Source: Ruegeria sp. THAF57
GTDB lineage: Bacteria > Pseudomonadota > Alphaproteobacteria > Rhodobacterales > Rhodobacteraceae
NCBI RefSeq assembly: GCF_903914075.1
Contig: NZ_CAIWNQ010000010.1
Span: 1-64,000, forward strand
DNA: 64,000 nt
Direction: 5' to 3'
How positions within the stretch are numbered: the stretch's first letter is position 1; every line of letters begins with the position of its first letter. The notes beneath the pieces are model-generated. The model ran no database searches and had not been told where the DNA came from. It saw only the letters and a list, made by a program, of their open reading frames with translations. Below, piece by piece: positions 10,134 through 21,869 of the stretch. The position numbers and the translations under genes are program-made.

Positions 10134-12185
10134 TCAAACAGGTTCCAGATTACCAAGCAGGATAGATGTCATATCTGTCGCGAAACCGCCGCCATCAATC
10201 GTGACACCGACACCAGTCTCGTAGTCTACATTCGATCTGGTAATGCCCGAAAGGTCCGCATCATCATCCAGAAACACCCATTGAGGCAAGTGCTTGGACG
10301 TTTGACCAACGGCTGTTTGCAAGATGGCAAGGGCATCTAGCGCATTGACTGTTCCATCCCGTGTTATGTCGGCAGCAATGATGTTTTCCGGTGCTGGCGC
10401 TCCCCATGTCGGGTTCAACCCGACCGACATTCGCAAGACCTGCAATGCGTCCAACGCATTAATATCTGAGCTCGCCGTGGAATAGGTCTTTATAATATCC
10501 AGTTCGCCCGAGAACACTCCAGGCGGCAAACCCAAATCAAACCGTCCATCCTCATCCGTGCGCACACTGACCGTGCCGCCACCATCCAAAGAAAATCTGA
10601 TTTCAGCCTGCGCCAATGCGGGGTTTTCGGTTTCGGAATTTATGGTTACGGGCCCCAGAACACCGTCCGAGCTTCCGGGGTCTAAACCGCCGAAATCTCC
10701 GAAATCGACTGGTATGTGGTCAGGCCCGTCAAAGCCCGCACCAAAGACTTGATCCGCTGTCAATCCGCCCCCCGACGCAGAGATCAACTCGACTTTTTCG
10801 TTAAGGTACCCGATCCTTGCGCCCTGATGCGTAGCGGTAAACGTCAGTTGCCCCGGAGTTCGAAGAAGTGGGAAATCGTACATATCAAGACGATCAAGAC
10901 CGGCTTGAAAATCGGTAATTGTCGTAGGATCGCTTCCGAATTGCATGACAAAGATATCCGCGCCTGACCCGCCGGTCATGGTCGTCGATCCGGTGCCCGC
11001 TATCAGAATGTCGTCTCCCGCGCCCCCCAACAATTCTGTGTCCAGAATGCCGCCGCTCAGCTTGTCCGCCCCGGCTGTGCCATGGACGGTTCCGAACCCT
11101 TTGCGCACTACACCCAAATCCGGAAGGGCAACGGACAGTTGTGTTAACCCAGCATCCTGTTGCGAAGAGACAAGCACCTGCAACTCATCCCCAACATGCG
11201 CAACACTCAGCGCTTCGACATTTTGCAGACCGCTTTCCACCGTATCCGCAAAGCTGTCCAGATAGACCAACTGCCCGTTCGGAATCAGGGTAAATAACGA
11301 GACCCCGTCATCCCCACCCCCTGCCACGACAAATACGTGCCCATCCACATTGACAACGGAAAGGTCCTGAACAGATTCGAACCGCGTGTGCCGGGAGTCC
11401 AAGACATGGTCTGTAGGGTCTAGGCGTCCGTCGCTGGTCAGCTTCATTACACTCAGCGAGTTGCTCTCCGACCCCGCTACGATCACCCAGGACTGGTTAT
11501 AGGCTTGAACAACGTCGATCTTGGTCGGTACCGCAATTCCCAGTGTCGCCAAGACCTCGCTATTATCGACTGCACTGAGGCCACCGGTCGCGTCATCCAC
11601 ACTAAATGTCGTAAAGGAACTTGAGATTGAATCGGACGCGACGACAACGTGGTTTGCCCCAATCGTGACCGTCTGCATCGAATCTACGGCGGCTGAAACC
11701 ATTTGAACAAGTTGCAAATCCCCTTGTGCATCAACTGAGTACGTCGCGATTTGCCCAATGTCATTCTGTGCCAGAACCAAAACGTCGCCAAGAGACGTCG
11801 ACACCTGCGCGACTGCAGACAGGTTGCCACCGCCAACAAGGCCACTGCTCTCATGTAACTGCCCCAGCGTTCCATCCGGGTTCATCGCATAACCAACAAG
11901 ACCGGATGCGTATCTGACGCTCAGGATCAATTGATCCTCTCCGGCCAAGGAAACAGGGAACCCCATACGCCCCGCGGTCGTAGCCAACGCTCCGCTAAAA
12001 TAAACAGTATCTGTCAGCTGCGGAATAAGGCCGTCCGACAGCTTCCAGACAGCGACACCGCCGCCGGGACCGGTAACGCTGTACAGGTACGTGTCACCGT
12101 TAAATGTTTTTAAAGCCGTATCGCCGATACCTGAATCGAGCGCTGCGCTCCCCGTTGCAACCACTCTTTCGAACTGAAGCATCAT
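10134..12185 (-). CDS. RTX-type exported protein with beta-propeller and C-terminal dockerin-like repeats
   Basis: 683 residues, no Sec signal peptide. Residues 1-355 form repeated beta-strand units typical of a lactonase/WD-like beta-propeller. Residues 365-445 hold degenerate RTX calcium-binding repeats (GGAGDDILIAG, GGSGADIFVM), the mark of type I secretion substrates. About 500-560 is a CNA-B/carboxypeptidase-regulatory-like beta module. Residues 565-630 contain two dockerin-like calcium loops with helices: DINALDALQVLRMSVG, then DITRDGTVNALDALAILQ. The second has the D-x-x-x-D-G-x-V-x-A-x-D pattern of type I dockerins. It diverges from the adhesin gene with 155 bp between starts. Two Met codons (12185 and 12182) could start it. 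Function is inferred as an extracellular or surface-bound protein. Confidence 0.75.
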   Translation of the reverse strand: MMLQFERVVATGSAALDSGIGDTALKTFNGDTYLYSVTGPGGGVAVWKLSDGLIPQLTDTVYFSGALATTAGRMGFPVSLAGEDQLILSVRYASGLVGYAMNPDGTLGQLHESSGLVGGGNLSAVAQVSTSLGDVLVLAQNDIGQIATYSVDAQGDLQLVQMVSAAVDSMQTVTIGANHVVVASDSISSSFTTFSVDDATGGLSAVDNSEVLATLGIAVPTKIDVVQAYNQSWVIVAGSESNSLSVMKLTSDGRLDPTDHVLDSRHTRFESVQDLSVVNVDGHVFVVAGGGDDGVSLFTLIPNGQLVYLDSFADTVESGLQNVEALSVAHVGDELQVLVSSQQDAGLTQLSVALPDLGVVRKGFGTVHGTAGADKLSGGILDTELLGGAGDDILIAGTGSTTMTGGSGADIFVMQFGSDPTTITDFQAGLDRLDMYDFPLLRTPGQLTFTATHQGARIGYLNEKVELISASGGGLTADQVFGAGFDGPDHIPVDFGDFGGLDPGSSDGVLGPVTINSETENPALAQAEIRFSLDGGGTVSVRTDEDGRFDLGLPPGVFSGELDIIKTYSTASSDINALDALQVLRMSVGLNPTWGAPAPENIIAADITRDGTVNALDALAILQTAVGQTSKHLPQWVFLDDDADLSGITRSNVDYETGVGVTIDGGGFATDMTSILLGNLEPV

Positions 12186-12340
12186 ACCAAATCACCCTGT
12201 GCCACTGCTGGCCCCAACACCAGGATGATCTGATGCCCCGCCCGAAACCAAAGCGGGATTGTGGTGAAAACGAGGAGTTCGGCTTCAGTTTAACTCAATT
12301 TTTCTGGTCCGACCGCACGAGTCACTGGAGGGACACTCAG

Positions 12341-15300
12341 ATGAACAAGAGCTGGCACCTTCAAGCGGACGCGGACACCACTTGTGAGGGTAAGATGACC
12401 AAAGAATCTGACGTCAAAATCCAGTCAAGCAACACGAACACCGGGCACAAGCGCAAGTCCTATGTCCGAAAGTGGATGGACAGGAAAATGCGCCGTGTCG
12501 CCGAAGGGGGCCTCCTCGGCGGTCTGGGATCCACGCTGTTGGCTTTGCCCGCTTTGGCGCAAGCTACCATCGAAGATCTTTACGCTTTTCAGTTCGCCGA
12601 AACCATCCCGGGCGTTCGATCGGTAAAACCGCTCGGAAACGGTGATGTCCTACTGAAGATGGCAGATGGCCGCAAAATCATTGTCGCATCCGAGAATGTG
12701 CAGGTTTTGGACAGCGGTGCGATCATGATCGCGGAAAATGCGGTGGCTGAAATCGCTCAATTCAGTTTGATAGCCGAAACAGGCGGTGCCGCAGCCTCTG
12801 GCGGGATTGGTGGTATTGGCGCGGCTGCCCTTGGTGGCTTGGGGTTAGCAGGCGCTGCGGCCGCTGCAGGCGGCGGCGGTGGCGGCGACGGAGATGACAC
12901 TCCCCCACCCGCCCCGACCTATCGACATTTGAATCTGGCAGGCGCGCAATCCAATGCTCTGAATTCAGCGACGTTGAACCTCAGCGCACCGGAAGGGGCA
13001 GAAACCGTGGAGGTTTCGATTGGGTCGTCAACCACTGTCGCGGTACTGAACGACGACGGCACTTGGAGCGCGTCCTTTACCCCGGTTCAGGCCTCTGCTC
13101 TGCCCCAAGGTGTAAATGATGTAGTAATCCGAAATCTGGATAGCGAAGGCGAAGAACTGGCTGTCGAAACAGTTATCTTCGACGTCGATACGGTTCCTCC
13201 CACATTGTCGATTTCCGGCTATTCCGACGGTACAGTGCTGAACGCAAGAGAACAAACAACCGATCTGGTTGTCACCGGAACCACCAATGCCGAGAACGGA
13301 CAAACTGTAATAGTCACGATCAACGGGCAGTCCTATACCGGGTCGGTACAAGGAGGGCAGTGGAGCGTCGCGGTCCCCTCAGATGATCTCACAGCTTTGC
13401 CTGATGGGGCCACTATTGCGGTGACCGCCAATGTCACTGACGAGGCGGGAAACCCAGCGGCCCAAGCCTCATCCAGCTTCGGTACAGACTTCACGGCCCC
13501 CTCAATTACATTGAATCCGATTTCAGGCGGTTCTATCGAGCTGATCGATCTGAACAACGACCTGACCCTTGGTGGCACGACTACCGCAGCCGACGGTCAA
13601 GTTGTCACGATAAATTTTGACGGCCGCACATACACCACGACCGCGTCTGGCGGGCAGTGGAGCGCGACTGTTCCATCCCAAGACCTAAGCGGCCTTACAA
13701 CCGGAACACCGGTGGCCGTCAGTGCAGTAGTTTCGGATCCGGCAGGCAATGTCTCAGTTCCGACCAACGCGCTGGTCCCGGTCGATCTGACAGGCCCTTC
13801 ATTGACGATCGCACCTCTTTCGACCGGGGCAACGTTAAACGCGATCGAGGGTGGAACGGACTTGGTCATCACCGGAACGACGGACAGGGTTGAAGATGGT
13901 CAAATCGTATCGGTTGAACTTGACGGTCAAACCTACACGACTGCCGTTTCAGGCAGCAGTTGGAGCGTTACCATTCCCACGGCGGACCTGCTGACCCTGG
14001 CGGATGGAGGATCCTTCACCCTAACAGCCGATGTGTCGGACACAGATGGTCTGTCTGCATCGCAAGCCAGCGTGCCATTGGGCAAGGACGTGACAGCGCC
14101 AACGCTCAGCATAGACAGTTTTTCCTCTGGTGCCGTCATGAACGCCGTCGAACAAGGCACTGATCTGTCGATCACCGGCTCGACCAACGCTGAAGACGGT
14201 CAAACAATATCCGTCGTTGCCAATGGGCAAACCTACACCGCAACCACGGTTGGAGGCAGTTGGACCGCAACTGTTCCCGCCGCTGACCTCTCGTCGCTTT
14301 CCGACGGTGCAACGATTGCGGTTTCAGCCGATGTAACCGATGCGGCAGGCAACCCCGCCGTTCAGGCCACCAGCAGCTTCCAAACGGACTTCACTGCCCC
14401 AGCGATAACCATTACCGGGCTGTCTGACGGCGCGGTTATGACCGCAAGCGAACAGACCACAGACCTGACAGTCGCAGGCACCTCAGATGCCCAAGATGGT
14501 GCGACGGTAACAGTTGCGATTACCAGACCGGACAACACCGTCGATGCCACCGGCACAACGACGGTCAGCGGCGGAACGTGGACCTATATTGCCAGCGCAA
14601 CCGACTTAGCCGGGCTACAAGACGGGCTAACTTACAGCGTAACCGCAACCATCGCGGACGATGTCGGGAACGAATCCACAGATGCGACAAGCTTTGCAAC
14701 GGATTTTACGGCACCGACAATCACTCTGAATGCGCTGCCCGGTGGTCCGGTGTTGGACATCAGCGAAAGAAATAGCGATCTTACGGTATCCGGGGCCACA
14801 AACGCGGAAGATGGGCAATCCGTCTCAGTCACCCTGGACGGGCAGACCTATAATGGCACTGTCTCGGGCGGGAACTGGTCGGCAACAATTCCGACCGCTG
14901 ATCTGATCGCACTGTCTGATGGTACCGGGTTTTTCATCTCGGCCACGGTCTCGGATGCAGCAGGAAACACATCGCTGCCAACGTCATTGCCACTCACCAC
15001 AGATTTCCGACCGATATTGAATCTGAATACCATTGGCTCAAACAAGGCGATTGATCTGAGTGATGCGACGGCGTCCGGTGTTGTTGTATCGGGCACGTCT
15101 ATCGGGTTGAGTGTTGGCCAATCTGTGGACGTCACACTCAATACGCTGTCTGTGGGTACTGCAGTCGTCGCCACTGACGGAACCTGGTCCTTGGCTGTTT
15201 CGGCTTCAGACTTTTCAGGGGTTGAAGCTGGCGATACGCTAAACTTTCAGGCGCAAGCCAATGTTTCAGGCGGAACCGACCCACTGCCTGCATCGGACCA

Positions 15301-16219
15301 AGTTAAGGCACACGATCCTGCTGCCTATACGATTGTCGAAGCTGGCCGCAGCGGTTCGGTTGTCACCTTCGAAATCTATGCCGATCCGGACCGCGACATT
15401 TCAAGCGGTCTGGCCATCACCGCCGATCTCGGCTTCGATCCGTCAGTGGTAACCTTTGATCTGGGCTCAGATAACGAGAACAGCGATTTCGATTTGTTCC
15501 TCGCAAATCCGAATGGCCCGGCCGAGGTCAGCTTTGGAGGCGCGGCGACTGTCTTCACCGATCTGACTCAGCCCTTGGTTACCTTCACGATGACGGTGCA
15601 AGACCCGGGCAGGCCAATTCAGTTGTCACTCACCACACCGGACGGCGGCCCCACTGATTTTCTTCTGGGTACGGGTGGAAATGACACGTTGGTTTCGACC
15701 GATGTGGACAATGTAGTCCGAGGCCAGAGCGGTGACGATACAATTGACGTGTCAAGCTCGGGCCGGGATGTAATCGTGTTTGAGGCCGATCCGTCAGACA
15801 ATGGAACTGACATCGTCACCGGTTTCACTCTTGGCCCGGCGGCCGATGTGTCGGATGCCTTGATGTTCAGCGGATTAAATACCGAAACTTTGCGCGGCAA
15901 CGGAACCGGAATGGAGACCCTGAACATCGGGGAGGCCATTGGTCTACACACAGGTTTTGTAGGTTTGGCGACACAGCTTTCCGATCTTTCTAAAGGAACG
16001 ATCGAGACAGCAGCAGAAAGCTTGACCGGCGTGCAGGCCGGTGACGAAATCTATGTCCTTGCCACAGACGGAGAGGATAGCACCCTCGTCAAGGTTGATT
16101 ATACGGCACCCGGCTCAGCGTCTGTCGAAACCATCGCCGAATTCTCCGGCTTTAGTGACCTGAGCAGTCTGAGTTCCGAAAATATCCTTCATACGGATCC
16201 GACCGGAGCTTCGGCGTAA
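12341..16219 (+). CDS. Large BapA-like surface adhesin with Ig-like repeats and a cohesin-like module
   Basis: 1292 residues from ATG 12341, which has GGAGGG 9 bp upstream. Residues 1-70 hold a basic leader and a hydrophobic stretch. About 85-150 resemble the BapA prefix domain (VKPLGNGDVLLKMADG). A Gly/Ala-rich linker follows (about 160-190). Residues 200-985 are eight Ig-like modules of about 95-100 residues, six of them close copies. Residues 993-1100 look like a cohesin: ADLGFDPSVVTFD, then LVTFTMTV, in an all-beta context. Then come degenerate RTX units (GTGGNDTLV, GQSGDDTIDV) and a C-terminal secretion-signal-like tail. It is acidic, with almost no Cys, as expected of giant biofilm adhesins exported by type I systems. 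The TolC, ABC and HlyD genes follow. Confidence 0.85.
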   Translation: MNKSWHLQADADTTCEGKMTKESDVKIQSSNTNTGHKRKSYVRKWMDRKMRRVAEGGLLGGLGSTLLALPALAQATIEDLYAFQFAETIPGVRSVKPLGNGDVLLKMADGRKIIVASENVQVLDSGAIMIAENAVAEIAQFSLIAETGGAAASGGIGGIGAAALGGLGLAGAAAAAGGGGGGDGDDTPPPAPTYRHLNLAGAQSNALNSATLNLSAPEGAETVEVSIGSSTTVAVLNDDGTWSASFTPVQASALPQGVNDVVIRNLDSEGEELAVETVIFDVDTVPPTLSISGYSDGTVLNAREQTTDLVVTGTTNAENGQTVIVTINGQSYTGSVQGGQWSVAVPSDDLTALPDGATIAVTANVTDEAGNPAAQASSSFGTDFTAPSITLNPISGGSIELIDLNNDLTLGGTTTAADGQVVTINFDGRTYTTTASGGQWSATVPSQDLSGLTTGTPVAVSAVVSDPAGNVSVPTNALVPVDLTGPSLTIAPLSTGATLNAIEGGTDLVITGTTDRVEDGQIVSVELDGQTYTTAVSGSSWSVTIPTADLLTLADGGSFTLTADVSDTDGLSASQASVPLGKDVTAPTLSIDSFSSGAVMNAVEQGTDLSITGSTNAEDGQTISVVANGQTYTATTVGGSWTATVPAADLSSLSDGATIAVSADVTDAAGNPAVQATSSFQTDFTAPAITITGLSDGAVMTASEQTTDLTVAGTSDAQDGATVTVAITRPDNTVDATGTTTVSGGTWTYIASATDLAGLQDGLTYSVTATIADDVGNESTDATSFATDFTAPTITLNALPGGPVLDISERNSDLTVSGATNAEDGQSVSVTLDGQTYNGTVSGGNWSATIPTADLIALSDGTGFFISATVSDAAGNTSLPTSLPLTTDFRPILNLNTIGSNKAIDLSDATASGVVVSGTSIGLSVGQSVDVTLNTLSVGTAVVATDGTWSLAVSASDFSGVEAGDTLNFQAQANVSGGTDPLPASDQVKAHDPAAYTIVEAGRSGSVVTFEIYADPDRDISSGLAITADLGFDPSVVTFDLGSDNENSDFDLFLANPNGPAEVSFGGAATVFTDLTQPLVTFTMTVQDPGRPIQLSLTTPDGGPTDFLLGTGGNDTLVSTDVDNVVRGQSGDDTIDVSSSGRDVIVFEADPSDNGTDIVTGFTLGPAADVSDALMFSGLNTETLRGNGTGMETLNIGEAIGLHTGFVGLATQLSDLSKGTIETAAESLTGVQAGDEIYVLATDGEDSTLVKVDYTAPGSASVETIAEFSGFSDLSSLSSENILHTDPTGASA
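13195..15300 (+). repeat. Tandem Ig-like coding repeats, about 295-bp period
   Basis: Seven successive units start at conserved phrases (for example near 13200, 13500, 13800, 14095, 14395 and 14715). Each carries a T(N/T)AEDGQ(T/S)V-like phrase, an Ala-Val/Ser-Asp-x-AGN phrase, and an FTAP or close boundary sequence. The seventh (from about 15015) is divergent. The DNA identity between units is moderate, so recent expansion is not indicated. Confidence 0.8.
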
Positions 16220-16265: not shown

Positions 16266-17110
16266 ATGGGCCCACAGATGGAACAAAACCAACTACAGCC
16301 CGTTTCCTTCGCGCGTCACAAAAACTGGCGCTGGAAACGCTTTACGTCCTATCGCTTTGCGACACAAAAAACCCAAAGCAGAATCGTCATGACAGAGGCG
16401 TCAGAAATTGCTGCTGCTTTTCCAATCATATTTCAGGAAACAGACCTCGGGATTGAGCCAAAGGCGCTGTTTTCGCTTCAGAAAAAAGCGCCAAACCCGT
16501 TTGTAACGACGGACGGCCGATGGTTGGCAAGCTATGTGCCAGCAGAATTGCGCTGCCCCCCCTTTCAACTCGCGCGCACCGAATATTCATCCCATGACAG
16601 ACATCACAATGTTCAGTTACTGGTTGATGAAACATCCGCTCTGCTAACAACCCAGCCGGAAGATGAACCGTTCTTCTCTGACAACGACGAATTGTCTCAA
16701 AACCTACAGGATGTGCTCAGGTTTTGCTCGCATGGTCCACAAACCACGAAAAGACGCTCAATGCTTGTCGTGGATTGGCGGCGATGGGGTTATTCGAAAC
16801 CATTGGCCACTACGGCGGCATCGAACTGCCCACCGGCGCGTTGGCAATCTCGTAGGATAGATTGGATGCACTGACCCAATCTGGAAAGCTCAAGTTGTTC
16901 GAGACCGGCGCGTTGAGCTTAGTTTTCGCCCATTCGATTTCCTTGTGTCACTGCAAATGGCTTTTTCAAGCGCAAAAGCGGCAAAGCCACGCTGACGATC
17001 GGGATAAATTCACTCAAAATTCAGATATTTCCAGTTTCCTCGGTGCTGTCGCCAACGCTCAGAGGAACGAATTTTTTGAAAATGGTGAAATGTCGATCAC
17101 TCATGCCTGA
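16266..17110 (+). pseudogene. SapC family protein, broken by a frameshift and a nonsense codon
   Basis: The first frame (from about ATG 16278) gives a good SapC start: FPIIFQ, DGRWLASYVPAELRCPPF, then LQDVLRF. At 16721-16724 the reading frame breaks in a TTTT run. Adding one T gives RFLLAWSTNHEKTLN and AAMGLFETIG in the frame that continues the family. That frame meets TAG at 16853-16855 and then resumes with LDALTQSGKLKLFETGALSLVFAHSISL, the SapC C-terminal signature. Two independent lesions make a sequencing error alone unlikely. SapC-like genes commonly sit beside S-layer or type I export loci, so the intact form probably served the adhesin exporter. A CAG to TAG change would explain the stop. 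Confidence 0.75.
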
Positions 17111-18443
17111 ACGCTGTTCTTGCCCTCGGATTCTGGCCATCCTCTTCATGATATTAACATCAGCTTGCACGCCTTTTCCTGATCTCACGGGGGTTGAAGC
17201 CTCTTTGTCGGATGGTGCCGTGGGTGTCGGAGCGCAGCCAAAATCAGCGCGTTTGACTCAGGGTGATTTAGGTAAACAAATTCAAGCTGCTGTCGAGGCC
17301 AACCCCAGACTCGCGCAGAGTGCGACCCAACTCGAAAGTGCCTTCGCCAATCAAGAGGCCGCGAGAGGAGCTTTCTTGCCTCAGGTCTCAGTGGGCTTGA
17401 GTGCCAGATCCGAGCGGACGAATACTGATCTCGCAGACGTAACCCCTTATTTGCGCATCTCTCAACTTGTTTACGATGGCGGTGCCGCGTCGGGCAATCT
17501 GGCCGCGGCCAAAGCGCGTGTACTGGAAAGCCGCGGTGACCAACTTCAAACAGCGTCCGCTTTAACACTGGCGGCAATTGAGGCCTATGTCCTGGTATTG
17601 AATCGCCGTGAGATACTTATGATCTCAGATCGCAATGTGGCCGTTCACAAAGAGGTTCTGAATCAAGTCGTTGCACGGTTAGATCAGGGCGCAGGGTCAA
17701 ATGCCGACGTTTTAACGGCGCGCTCACGTATAGCCGATGCGATGACGCGCCTGTCAGACGCAAGGACGCGAACGGAGCGCGCCGAGGCTCAGTTTCGAGA
17801 AGCATTTGGGCAAGAGCCGGGTGAGTTGTCGCAGCCTGTTACCGCTCCTGTTTTGACCCGGTCGGACCGTCAGATCATATTCGACAGCCCGCAAGTACGC
17901 CGCGCTGACGCTGCTTTGCTGGCGGCTCGTGCGGAACTCTCTGCTGCCGTCGCACGGCGTCAGCCCGGGGTGAAAGTCGCGGCATTCGCCGACCGGGACA
18001 ACAGCAATGATGCAAACTTCGGGGTAGATCTCTCGTTTACATACGAATTGGACAGCACGGGGCAAAGGCGCGCATCTATTGCCATTGCAGAAGCCCGAGT
18101 CGAAGAAGCGGAGTATGCCCGCGACACTCTGATCCGAGAAATTCAGCGGGAACTGGATTTCATTCGATCAGACCAGCAAGCCGGTGCAGAAAGGCTTCGG
18201 GCAGCACGTCTTGCAGCTCAGGCAAACGCCAAAAGTGTCGTCGCTGCCCGCGCGCAATTCACAATAGGCAGGCGTAGCCTGATCGAGATACTGGATGCGC
18301 AACGCGACCATGTGAACGCCCAGGAACGCTTCATCCTTGCCAAGCAAAATACCTTTCTGACCAATTACGCCGTGCTCAGTCTGACAGGCGACATCTTGGA
18401 CCTTTTCGGCATTTCCATCCAATTTGAGGATCTGCGCAAATGA
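17082..18443 (+). CDS. TolC-family outer-membrane channel of a type I secretion system
   Basis: About 453 residues. A signal peptide ends in a lipobox-like LTSAC (ILAILFMILTSAC), so it may be a lipoprotein like several TolC relatives. Then come the two repeated OEP domains with long helical hairpins: QSATQLESAFANQEAARGAF near the start, YLRISQLVYDGGA, and the second-half counterpart VDLSFTYELDSTGQRRASIA. It would form the trimeric outer-membrane duct for the adhesin. ATG 17082 follows a GAGGAA 15 bp upstream; ATG 17103 is an alternative that gives a shorter signal peptide. It overlaps the ABC gene by 4 bp. Confidence 0.88.
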   Translation: MVKCRSLMPERCSCPRILAILFMILTSACTPFPDLTGVEASLSDGAVGVGAQPKSARLTQGDLGKQIQAAVEANPRLAQSATQLESAFANQEAARGAFLPQVSVGLSARSERTNTDLADVTPYLRISQLVYDGGAASGNLAAAKARVLESRGDQLQTASALTLAAIEAYVLVLNRREILMISDRNVAVHKEVLNQVVARLDQGAGSNADVLTARSRIADAMTRLSDARTRTERAEAQFREAFGQEPGELSQPVTAPVLTRSDRQIIFDSPQVRRADAALLAARAELSAAVARRQPGVKVAAFADRDNSNDANFGVDLSFTYELDSTGQRRASIAIAEARVEEAEYARDTLIREIQRELDFIRSDQQAGAERLRAARLAAQANAKSVVAARAQFTIGRRSLIEILDAQRDHVNAQERFILAKQNTFLTNYAVLSLTGDILDLFGISIQFEDLRK

Positions 18444-20575
18444 GCTTACAAGATTGCAGGGAACACACACTGTTTGAGACGTGTTTGATGCACATCTCTG
18501 CGCAACTCGAACGGCCCATAACAGCCGCAGCTCTTTTTTCAGCACACTCGGATCCTGCCGGGGAATTAACTGTCCGGGATGCAATTGAAGCAGCAGACAA
18601 GGCCGGATTGCAGGCTGGCTATGGTGAGTGGAAACTGCCGAACTTCGACGAAAGCCTGGTGCCTGCGCTCTTACTGATGACCGGAAACCGAACCGTTGTT
18701 TTCCACGGCCGCACCAAGACCGGTGAGTACCTCATCTACGACCCGCAGCGCGGAGAACAGATTGCCGAGGTCGCGGAAGCGCAACTGAAGGAGGCGTACA
18801 CTGGGTATGCGATCCTGTTTCGTCGCAGCTATCTGAGGGATCCGTCACTTAAAACTCAGCATGTCTCTGGTCACTGGTTTTGGTCCGCAATGTCTGCAAA
18901 CCACTGGTCCTACGCACAGGTTGTACTGGCCGCTGTAGTGGCAAACATACTTGGGTTGTCCACATCTGTATTTATCATGGTGGTGTATGATCGGGTTCTG
19001 CCGAACGAAGCTACAGAATCCCTGGTGGCCTTAACCATCGGCGTCGGTTTGGCGCTTGGCTTTGACTTTTGTCTGAAAATTCTAAGAGCCGGGTTTATTG
19101 ATAGGGCCGGAAAAAAGGCCGATCTTCTCATGGGGCGGCGCGTCTTCGATCAGTTGCTGAACATTCGGATGAAGTCCCGCACTGGTTCGACAGGCGCCAT
19201 GGCCAATACCGTCAGAGAATTCGAGACACTGCGAGAGTTTTTTACGTCCGCCACTCTTGTTGCCGTCGTCGATTTGCCGTTTATCGTTTTGTTTATCCTC
19301 GTCATCCACGCGATAGGTGGCTCACTTGCCATTATCCCAGCTCTGTCGGTCCCCGTTGTGCTGGTCGCTGGACTGGTGGTACAAGCGTTGCTTGCGCGGC
19401 TGGCCGAAAAAAGTTTTGCCGACGGGCAATCAAAGCAATCGGTTCTGATCGAAACGGTTTCCGGGCTCGAAACCATCAAAACGACAGCTGCAGCAAGACA
19501 GATGCGATCACGATGGGACGCTGCCATGGACAGGCAATCCACCCATGGTATGCGCAGTCGAACGATTACACAATTCGCATTGAACTTAACGGGCTTCACA
19601 CAGCAAGCCGCTCAAGTATTGATTGTCTTTTACGGCGTTTTCCTGATTACCGACGGTCAAACCAGCATGGGCGCGTTGGTTGCATGTGTGATGTTGACGG
19701 GGCGGGCGCTGGCGCCACTTGGCCAACTCGCCCAGACTTTGACCCGCGTAAACCAAGCGAGAAGCGCATATCGCAGTCTGAACACTTTGATGGATGCGGA
19801 AAGCGAACGCCCCACGGGAAAAGGCTGGATCAGCCGTCCTGATATCGAAGGCCGCATTTCGTTTAAGGGTGTTAGATTTTCGTATTCTGATCAAATGGAT
19901 GAGACACTGTCAGGCATTTCAATTGATATCCAACCCGGAGAAAAGGTCGCTATTCTCGGCCCAATAGGGTCCGGAAAAAGCACGATCGCGCGCCTGATGC
20001 TAGGGCTTTATCAACCTGACTCTGGCTCGGTATCATTAGACGGCGTGGACATCCGCCAGATTGACCCTGGCGATCTTAGAAGGAACATTGGGTCTGTTCT
20101 ACAAGACATCTGGCTGTTTTCTGGATCAATACGAGACAACATAGCGGCAGGTGCAAACAGGGCCCGCGACCAGGAAATAGTCGAGGCCGGGCGGATCGCG
20201 GGAGTAGAAGATTTTGCAGCCCGAACCGCTGCGGGCTACGACATGCAACTTTCCGAACGCGGTGAAGGATTGTCTGGTGGTCAACGGCAGGCCATAGCCC
20301 TAGCGCGCGCGTTAATTGGGCGACCACCGGTTCTTCTGTTTGACGAGCCGACAAGCGCCATGGACGTAAAGACAGAGTCCGAAGTCATCGAACGGCTGAA
20401 ACAAGCGACGGCGGATACGACCATGGTAATCGTCACGCATCGCACCAGTCTCCTCGCTCTTGTGGATCGCGTGATTGTAATCGAAAACGGACGGATTTCA
20501 GCTGATGGCCCCAAAAGTATCCTGACCCAACATCTGCGTCCAACCGGAAGGAAACTGAATGCCGCGGCATCCTGA
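18440..20575 (+). CDS. Type I secretion ABC transporter (LapB/RtxB type)
   Basis: 711 residues. Residues 1-135 are a C39-peptidase-like domain that appears inactive, as in LapB-type exporters of RTX adhesins. About 160-430 is a six-helix membrane domain. The ATPase domain (about 470-700) has Walker A GPIGSGKS, signature LSGGQRQA, Walker B VLLFDEPTSAMD and an H-loop TMVIVTHR. It would energise export of the adhesin and probably of the divergent RTX protein. It overlaps tolC by 4 bp and hlyD by 17 bp, so the three are one unit. Confidence 0.93.
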   Translation: MSLQDCREHTLFETCLMHISAQLERPITAAALFSAHSDPAGELTVRDAIEAADKAGLQAGYGEWKLPNFDESLVPALLLMTGNRTVVFHGRTKTGEYLIYDPQRGEQIAEVAEAQLKEAYTGYAILFRRSYLRDPSLKTQHVSGHWFWSAMSANHWSYAQVVLAAVVANILGLSTSVFIMVVYDRVLPNEATESLVALTIGVGLALGFDFCLKILRAGFIDRAGKKADLLMGRRVFDQLLNIRMKSRTGSTGAMANTVREFETLREFFTSATLVAVVDLPFIVLFILVIHAIGGSLAIIPALSVPVVLVAGLVVQALLARLAEKSFADGQSKQSVLIETVSGLETIKTTAAARQMRSRWDAAMDRQSTHGMRSRTITQFALNLTGFTQQAAQVLIVFYGVFLITDGQTSMGALVACVMLTGRALAPLGQLAQTLTRVNQARSAYRSLNTLMDAESERPTGKGWISRPDIEGRISFKGVRFSYSDQMDETLSGISIDIQPGEKVAILGPIGSGKSTIARLMLGLYQPDSGSVSLDGVDIRQIDPGDLRRNIGSVLQDIWLFSGSIRDNIAAGANRARDQEIVEAGRIAGVEDFAARTAAGYDMQLSERGEGLSGGQRQAIALARALIGRPPVLLFDEPTSAMDVKTESEVIERLKQATADTTMVIVTHRTSLLALVDRVIVIENGRISADGPKSILTQHLRPTGRKLNAAAS

Positions 20576-21869
20576 CCTCGCAACACTGGCCATGGAAATG
20601 CGCGGACGGGCGCCTTTGCGTAGTTCAATGTTGCTGTTGCTCATCGTGGCGTGTCTCGTCACTGCGGCGCTATGGGCGTACCTGACAGAACTGGATGACG
20701 TGACCAGGGTAGATGGGCGGATCGTGCCTTCGGGTGACGTCCAGAAAATTGAGGCGACGGAGACAGGTGTTCTCAGGTCACTGCACGTTCTGGAAGGCCA
20801 AGTGGTAGACAAAGACACCCTGTTGATGGAGTTCGACACCACACAGATTGACAGCGAACTCAAACAGAAGCAGCAGCACGCCTTTGGTCTGATCGCACGC
20901 GTTCACAGGTTGCAAGTCGAAATCGACGAAGGGGATCTGGTCTTTGCCAAGAGCCTGATCGAGGGCGCGCCGGACGTGGTAAAATCTGAGACAGCTCTCT
21001 ATCACGGTCGCCAAACCGAACTTCGTTCCGAAATTGCCATTCTTGAACGGCAGCGCTTGCAGCGACAGCGAGAATACGAAGAGGGCCTTGTCGATCAAGT
21101 CACCGCAGAAGAAACGCTCAGAGTATTGGCCGAAGAACGTGCCATCATGACACTGTTGGTGAAAAAGAAAATGGAGCCAGCGACTACTCTGTTGACCCTT
21201 CGGCGCAGCGAGGCGGAATGGTCGGGCAGAAAAACCCGCGCGGAAGCTGTAACAAACCGGTTACAGACCGGTCTTGAAGAAATCGACGATCGAATTCGCG
21301 CAACGCGAAATCGGTTCCGCAGCGCCGCTTTGACAGACCTTGCGATCGCCACTGCAGAACTTGCGGCTTTGAAACCCGCCATTCCAGCCCTCAAAGACCG
21401 TGCAGACCGCGCCCAGATAAAATCTCCTGTACGAGGAATCGTAAATCGAGTGCACCGCACGACAATTGGCGGCTTGGCGCGCAGTGGGGAAGATCTTATT
21501 GAAATTGTCCCGTTGGACGACACGCTTCTTGTGGAAGCTTATGTACCCCCAAAAGACATCGCATTTCTATACGCCGGGCAACCCGTAAAGGTTAAGATTA
21601 CCGCTTATGATTTCGCTCGATACGGCGCTTTGGACGGAAACATAACCAGGATCGGCGCCAGCACTATTTCTCGGTCTGAACGGGATGACGAAGAAGTCTT
21701 CGTTGTTGAAATTAAGACGCGCCAGTCGTTTTTGGATGCAAACGGAGTGTCGATTGAGATCATTCCCGGCATGATTGCGGAAGTTGACATCCTTTCAGGG
21801 AAAAAGACCGTTTGGGAATATATTGTTCAGCCCGTGATCAAGATCAGGGATAAGGCTCTGCGCGAGTGA
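20559..21869 (+). CDS. Type I secretion periplasmic adaptor (HlyD/LapC type)
   Basis: 436 residues with one N-terminal TM helix (about 23-43), a lipoyl half (VLRSLHVLEGQVVDKDTLLMEF), a long coiled-coil region with many charged and Leu/Glu/Arg residues (about 85-280), the second lipoyl half (AQIKSPVRGIVNRVH) and a beta-barrel. The end, with IKTRQSFL and PGMIAEVDILSGKKTV, is the classic HlyD C-terminal signature. It joins the ABC protein to the TolC-like channel. It begins inside the ABC gene and is the last gene of the secretion unit. Confidence 0.93.
   Translation: MPRHPDLATLAMEMRGRAPLRSSMLLLLIVACLVTAALWAYLTELDDVTRVDGRIVPSGDVQKIEATETGVLRSLHVLEGQVVDKDTLLMEFDTTQIDSELKQKQQHAFGLIARVHRLQVEIDEGDLVFAKSLIEGAPDVVKSETALYHGRQTELRSEIAILERQRLQRQREYEEGLVDQVTAEETLRVLAEERAIMTLLVKKKMEPATTLLTLRRSEAEWSGRKTRAEAVTNRLQTGLEEIDDRIRATRNRFRSAALTDLAIATAELAALKPAIPALKDRADRAQIKSPVRGIVNRVHRTTIGGLARSGEDLIEIVPLDDTLLVEAYVPPKDIAFLYAGQPVKVKITAYDFARYGALDGNITRIGASTISRSERDDEEVFVVEIKTRQSFLDANGVSIEIIPGMIAEVDILSGKKTVWEYIVQPVIKIRDKALRE

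Follow-up and report, generated by a model that had tools for sequence, protein, structure and literature searches.

A 64,000-nucleotide (nt) window from the genome of Ruegeria sp. THAF57 contains two divergent genes for exported proteins, named D and A here. The window is the whole stretch of DNA that was analyzed. D is a beta-propeller protein with a C-terminal dockerin module. A is an adhesin with a cohesin-like module near its C-terminal end. A is probably a type I-exported fiber that uses this single cohesin to display dockerin-tagged cargo, with D as a co-exported partner that would bind to it. The evidence consists of the modules themselves, the predicted fold of the A module, the linkage of the two genes, a tag shared among unrelated proteins, the co-divergence of the two modules, and a recognition position that is mostly genome specific. 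A preliminary description had proposed that the adhesin docks the propeller protein by a calcium-dependent cohesin-dockerin pair, and our results support this. Two outcomes that it listed as refuting the proposal did not occur: the segment has a predicted cohesin fold, and the two genes are conserved as a pair. Both open reading frames (ORFs) and the motifs quoted for them lie where it placed them. Profile and ORF analysis covered the window, and genome-wide searches covered the 4.28-Mb genome. D and its parts are as follows.

10134..12185, minus strand: D, propeller/RTX/dockerin protein of 683 amino acids (aa) (ORF, Pfam)
11136..12185, minus strand: residues 1-350 of D, lactonase-type beta-propeller (PF10282, best stretch 104-209)
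10824..11096, minus strand: residues 364-454 of D, M10_C / RTX region (PF08548)
10491..10655, minus strand: residues 511-565 of D, CarboxypepD_reg-like (CnaB-type) segment preceding the dockerin (Pfam score below the cut-off)
10296..10490, minus strand: residues 566-630 of D, two-repeat dockerin (PF00404 at 573-621; second calcium loop canonical, DITRDGTVNALD; first degenerate)
10455..10457, minus strand: Ala577 of D, F-hand position 11 of repeat 1 (recognition position)
10341..10343, minus strand: Ala615 of D, F-hand position 11 of repeat 2 (recognition position)
10137..10295, minus strand: residues 631-683 of D, conserved C-terminal tail ending ILLGNLEPV

The dockerin of D matched PF00404 with 26.9 bits (cut-off, 22.9) and an E value of 5.8e-6. 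It was the only one of two matches in the genome to pass the cut-off. It contains two duplicated F-hand repeats with DALxxLR-type helices, as seen in an alignment of 29 dockerin modules. D had been described as ending in two calcium-loop helices in a dockerin pattern; this holds for the family match and the second loop and fails for the first loop. The tail behind the dockerin is probably a type I secretion signal. A sequence search of solved structures with the D C terminus gave ankyrin/DARPin matches (best E = 0.00097), which were treated as chance. Dockerin was matched only at an E value of 0.57 in the same search.

The adhesin is encoded on the opposite strand.

12341..16219, plus strand: A, adhesin (ORF opens at 12104, 1371 aa; likely start at 12341 or 12395)
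12476..12565, plus strand: conserved Sec-signal-like stretch of A ending LPALAQA (from the sequence; kept in distant relatives)
12566..12898, plus strand: N-terminal domain of A and Gly/Ala-rich stretch (from the sequence)
12929..15265, plus strand: Ig-like repeats of A (Ca_tandemer NF033510, 8 stretches; Big_13; limits approximate)
15314..15673, plus strand: cohesin-like module of A (predicted structure, model residues 17-136)
15674..16216, plus strand: RTX-type and C-terminal region of A (predicted structure, alignments)

The A module is predicted to adopt the jelly-roll fold of cohesins. Cohesins, not stalk domains, top the structure-comparison list, and sequence identity to the known cohesin structures from Clostridium perfringens and Archaeoglobus fulgidus is 10-12%. 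The C-terminal part of the A model aligns with RTX lipases and proteases, and D has an M10_C match. Both proteins therefore carry RTX units, as first described.

The two genes are conserved together. The A C terminus was scanned against one genome each of 84,980 species, which returned 48 loci. L047 to L050 matched the RTX end only and were left out, leaving 44 adhesin loci. A dockerin-module gene lies at most 10 kb from the adhesin in 42 of these (31/31 in L003 to L033 and 11/13 in L034 to L046). The 10-kb flank has none in L046, which is on a 12-kb contig, and in L044, whose contig is as long as contig C22 of genome G037. By profile there is one cohesin-like match per genome. Dockerin modules can be far more numerous. 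Genome G037 has 21 dockerin-module matches and one cohesin-like adhesin with its exporter. Of the 21, 18 cover at least 140 of the 172 model positions and 3 are partial; seven lie at 11-33 kb of one contig. A full cohesin match is present in 40 of 54 genomes of the genus, and a dockerin match accompanies it in every one of them (D is frameshifted in G332). The dockerin is missing in 4 of the 14 genomes without a full cohesin, truncated or broken in 9, and intact in one (G043); a cohesin remnant is retained in G315. In 7 of 10 inspected genomes from these 14, an exporter remnant directly adjoins the D remnant. The exporter remnant is HlyD or ABC, and in L140 TolC comes first. Several distinct large deletions of the locus occur in Ruegeria genomes (L104, L140 to L148). 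Four Ruegeria genomes (G297, G298, G314, and G324) encode, outside the adhesin locus, another full-length dockerin-module protein.

The same module is found on unrelated cargo. Among 36 further dockerin-module proteins, not counting D, Pfam scans identified VWD domains in 10, CAP in 5, and DUF285, RCC1 repeats, an M23 peptidase, and an M10 peptidase in 1 each. Many contain RTX units, and several, such as those of L038, have no recognized cargo domain. The PF00404 cut-off was passed by 13 of the 36. In 7 adhesin loci, 2 or 3 proteins bear the module at the C terminus. Such a distribution is what would be expected of a shared docking tag. The dockerin cargo of G037 (L106 to L113 and L151 to L156) includes RCC1 repeats, an M23 peptidase, CAP, and VWD.

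F-hand positions 11 and 12 are described as central to cohesin recognition in cellulosomal dockerins, in the sections available of two reports (PMC4728124, PMC5141474). We tested 21 modules with known cargo from 12 genomes, out of 53 tabulated. Position 11 (residues 577 and 615 of D) was identical in 11 of 11 same-genome pairs with different cargo; for pairs with the same cargo from different genomes, the value was 0.44. The two position-11 columns ranked first and second of 166 for genome specificity (P = 0.0018, labels shuffled within cargo). The modules overall were less alike within genomes (0.377) than with the same cargo across genomes (0.438). Position 12 had no such pattern (0.18 versus 0.19). 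Outside the tested set, position 11 is Ala in 37 of 38 loops across 19 modules of G037 and Ser in 5 of 5 loops of G224.

Pairwise distances were compared over 32 loci, with L016 dropped. Cohesin distances correlated with dockerin distances (r = 0.53) but not with those of the A RTX end (0.21), the propeller (0.16), HlyD (0.11), ABC (0.04), or the CnaB-like segment adjoining the dockerin (0.04); for the D tail, r was 0.35. The partial Mantel correlation of cohesin and dockerin given ABC was 0.54 (P = 0.0005). Scans used 40 non-redundant D/A pairs (of 69 usable and 70 given). With 50-residue windows in D, the correlation with the cohesin peaked at residues 571-670 (r up to 0.56; elsewhere at most 0.38; max-statistic permutation P = 0.0004). 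In the reverse direction, A was scanned against the dockerin, and after correction for the propeller/RTX part the correlation peaked at 1058-1217 (0.37-0.48; elsewhere at most 0.28). Two patterns that the preliminary description did not have, this co-divergence and a recognition position that is uniform within genomes across cargo types, also indicate a cohesin-dockerin pair.

The same comparisons bear on other explanations. The dockerin and tail could serve in export or folding, as a module that the type I transporter recognizes and not as a ligand of A, and the cohesin-like domain could be another Ig-like stalk domain. This is unlikely. The dockerin distances track the cohesin rather than ABC (r = 0.27) or HlyD (r = 0.29), the structure list is headed by cohesins, and the most genome-specific column pair is position 11 of both repeats, not a part of the tail. 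A also has no dockerin module, though it is encoded in the same exporter locus.

More doubtful still is an intramolecular calcium clamp, in which the dockerin packs on its own CnaB-like segment and the cohesin-like module binds another ligand, such as a glycan. A CarboxypepD_reg-like segment frequently sits directly before the dockerin in the scanned proteins, the first calcium loop is degenerate, and packing of an X-module on the dockerin is known for type II dockerins, all of which would suit a clamp. In known X-dockerins, however, such packing is not known to stop cohesin binding. The CnaB-like segment tracks neither the cohesin nor the dockerin (r = 0.13 for the latter), and the two symmetric recognition positions agree within genomes across cargo.

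It is very improbable that D and A do not bind and are only neighbors in a single surface locus that can be deleted: deletions in the genus do take adhesin and exporter together, and neighbors are expected to co-occur, but one genome has the adhesin without an adjoining dockerin gene and yet 21 dockerin matches elsewhere, the module stays while cargo types change, and co-divergence is confined to the two modules.

Several results weigh against docking of D on A. The earlier description of the A segment as a cohesin is upheld by the predicted fold and not by sequence, as PF00963 had no match at an E value of 10 or less in A or in the whole genome. No genome among 295 of the family had a PF00963 match over the cut-off (one match fell below it), and six divergent relatives likewise had none. 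A profile of the cohesin-like module found nothing among solved structures at an E value of 10 or less, nor did an earlier 10-row profile. A longer profile matched lipases and proteases in their RTX parts and gave one weak match that was unrelated. Position 1 of the first calcium loop of the dockerin is not acidic in any of the tabulated modules, and in D positions 3 and 5 are not acidic either; only the second of the two loops is canonical. Because the first loop is degenerate throughout, calcium dependence would come from the second loop and from the RTX and Ig parts.

Nine genomes of the 295-genome survey bear dockerins, and 5 of these (G041, G043, G224, G233, and G281) had no detectable cohesin-like adhesin; in four of the five, the dockerin genes sit on contig edges or small contigs. 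G043 keeps an intact D with only the N terminus of the adhesin. Co-loss of adhesin and dockerin in the genus is weak evidence, because it reflects linked deletions and not independent decay. G233, outside the tested set, is mixed at position 11, with Thr in repeat 1 and Ser, Ser, and Thr in repeat 2. The position-11 states cluster by clade, so there were few independent changes and the P value is optimistic.

The co-divergence also has limits. Uncorrected, the reverse scan was not sharp (0.47-0.53 in the cohesin and up to 0.49 just before it). When the five most divergent cohesins were dropped, D residues 421-500 equaled the dockerin (0.60 versus 0.56), and when ten were dropped, the dockerin peak was gone. 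It is therefore the allele classes with changes in both modules that give rise to the signal. Residue-level mutual information over the 40 pairs was not localized to the two modules or the recognition positions and is uninformative at such depth.

The remaining features of the locus concern export. Downstream of A are a SapC-family gene and then a complete type I exporter, at 17043-21869. The preliminary description had noted that a type I exporter follows.

12186..12340, no strand: D-A divergent intergenic region (holds if A starts at 12341)
16266..16874, plus strand: SapC-family gene (present between adhesin and exporter in 44/44 related adhesin loci)
17043..18443, plus strand: TolC-type outer membrane channel (profile matches)
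18440..20575, plus strand: type I secretion ABC transporter, LssB type (TIGR03375, profile match)
20559..21869, plus strand: HlyD-type adaptor (TIGR01843, profile match)

The 1371-aa ORF of A overlaps D because the first available start codon was taken as its start. The database record of the same protein begins at window position 12341. The Ig-like repeats, RTX end, and adjacent TolC/ABC/HlyD genes identify A as an RTX adhesin with a type I exporter. Both proteins had been said to lack Sec signals. This is doubtful for A, in which the stretch at 12476-12565 has a charged run followed by a hydrophobic part ending LPALAQA. Such a stretch is unusual in a protein exported by a type I system. TolC has no match in L016 and L021, two Ruegeria loci that are similar in other respects; L149, which has a frameshifted D and a contig of the same length as that of L016, is also without TolC. 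In L120, L083, and L085, whose genomes yielded no dockerin module, a related RTX C-terminal tail is carried by proteins with sequences resembling those of right-handed beta-helices.

A shares Ig-like repeats, an RTX end, and a dedicated type I exporter with LapA/Bap-type RTX adhesins, which are released by LapG. The genome of the window also has a LapG homologue, a peptidase of the PF06035 family encoded at G000:C4:219424-219876 (E = 1.8e-44). It may be the release protease for A. The N-terminal domain of A with its Ala/Gly stretch (12566-12898) is probably a retention module. A differs from LapA and Bap in its cohesin-like domain near the C-terminal end and in partner proteins that bear dockerins. 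To our knowledge, no dockerin-bearing partner is known for LapA or Bap.

The pair also differs from the type I cohesin-dockerin pairs of cellulosomes (e.g., 1ohz from Clostridium thermocellum). It occurs in a Gram-negative bacterium with type I secretion, and one cohesin is carried on an Ig/RTX adhesin. A has one cohesin-like match and no carbohydrate-binding module (CBM) over the cut-off in a Pfam scan, whereas cellulosomes have several cohesins and a cellulose-binding module. Cellulosomal dockerins are on glycoside hydrolases; no glycoside hydrolase catalytic family was found among the 36 dockerin proteins besides D. The degenerate first loop and the lack of a PF00963 match set it apart further. 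The non-cellulosomal cohesins of C. perfringens (2jh2, 2w1n, 2vo8) and A. fulgidus (2xdh) are parts of secreted glycoside hydrolases or of a protein from an archaeon. Unlike the module of A, they are not on an exporter-linked adhesin with adjoining dockerin cargo. Saccharophagus degradans, like Ruegeria a proteobacterium without a classical cellulosome, has two dockerin-like and six cohesin-like ORFs; the available sections of that report concern carbohydrate degradation and mention no pairing, secretion-system link, or binding (PMC2386152). Among the open-access papers listed by our searches, with subscription papers and preprints mostly outside the scope, none describes such a pair in Rhodobacterales or in an adhesin secreted by a type I system.

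A and D are best described as working like a cohesin-dockerin system, with a cohesin outside PF00963 by sequence and a dockerin atypical in one loop. A would be a type I-exported surface fiber with a single cryptic cohesin close to its C-terminal end, which is probably the distal one. Both proteins would leave the cell in unfolded form by way of the TolC/LssB/HlyD exporter and take up their fold outside, with calcium. The dockerin of D would then bind the cohesin of A, and the propeller would be displayed on the fiber. This binding, its calcium dependence, the retention of the fiber on the cell, and the role of the propeller are inferred. In other Rhodobacteraceae, the same dockerin module would hold VWD, CAP, DUF285, RCC1-repeat, and peptidase cargo on a single fiber, up to many proteins per genome.

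We lean toward a wider view, with less confidence than for the THAF57 pair. Rhodobacteraceae, which are Gram-negative, may have a type I-secreted equivalent of the anchor of cellulosomes. This would be a single-cohesin, calcium-rigidified fiber whose distal socket takes interchangeable dockerin cargo (propeller, VWD, CAP, RCC1, M23 and M10 peptidases, and others), with about 20 tagged proteins in one species and a position-11 code that is largely genome specific. The dockerins of this family have been without a sequence-recognizable partner, with no above-cut-off cohesin in the 295 genomes. Should the A module be that partner, the occurrence of one C-terminal module on unrelated exported proteins, peptidases included, would be explained. 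Gram-negative cohesin-dockerin docking would then be used outside polysaccharide breakdown, and new pairs would be available for engineering. The surface display of exported proteins in this marine group would become directly testable.

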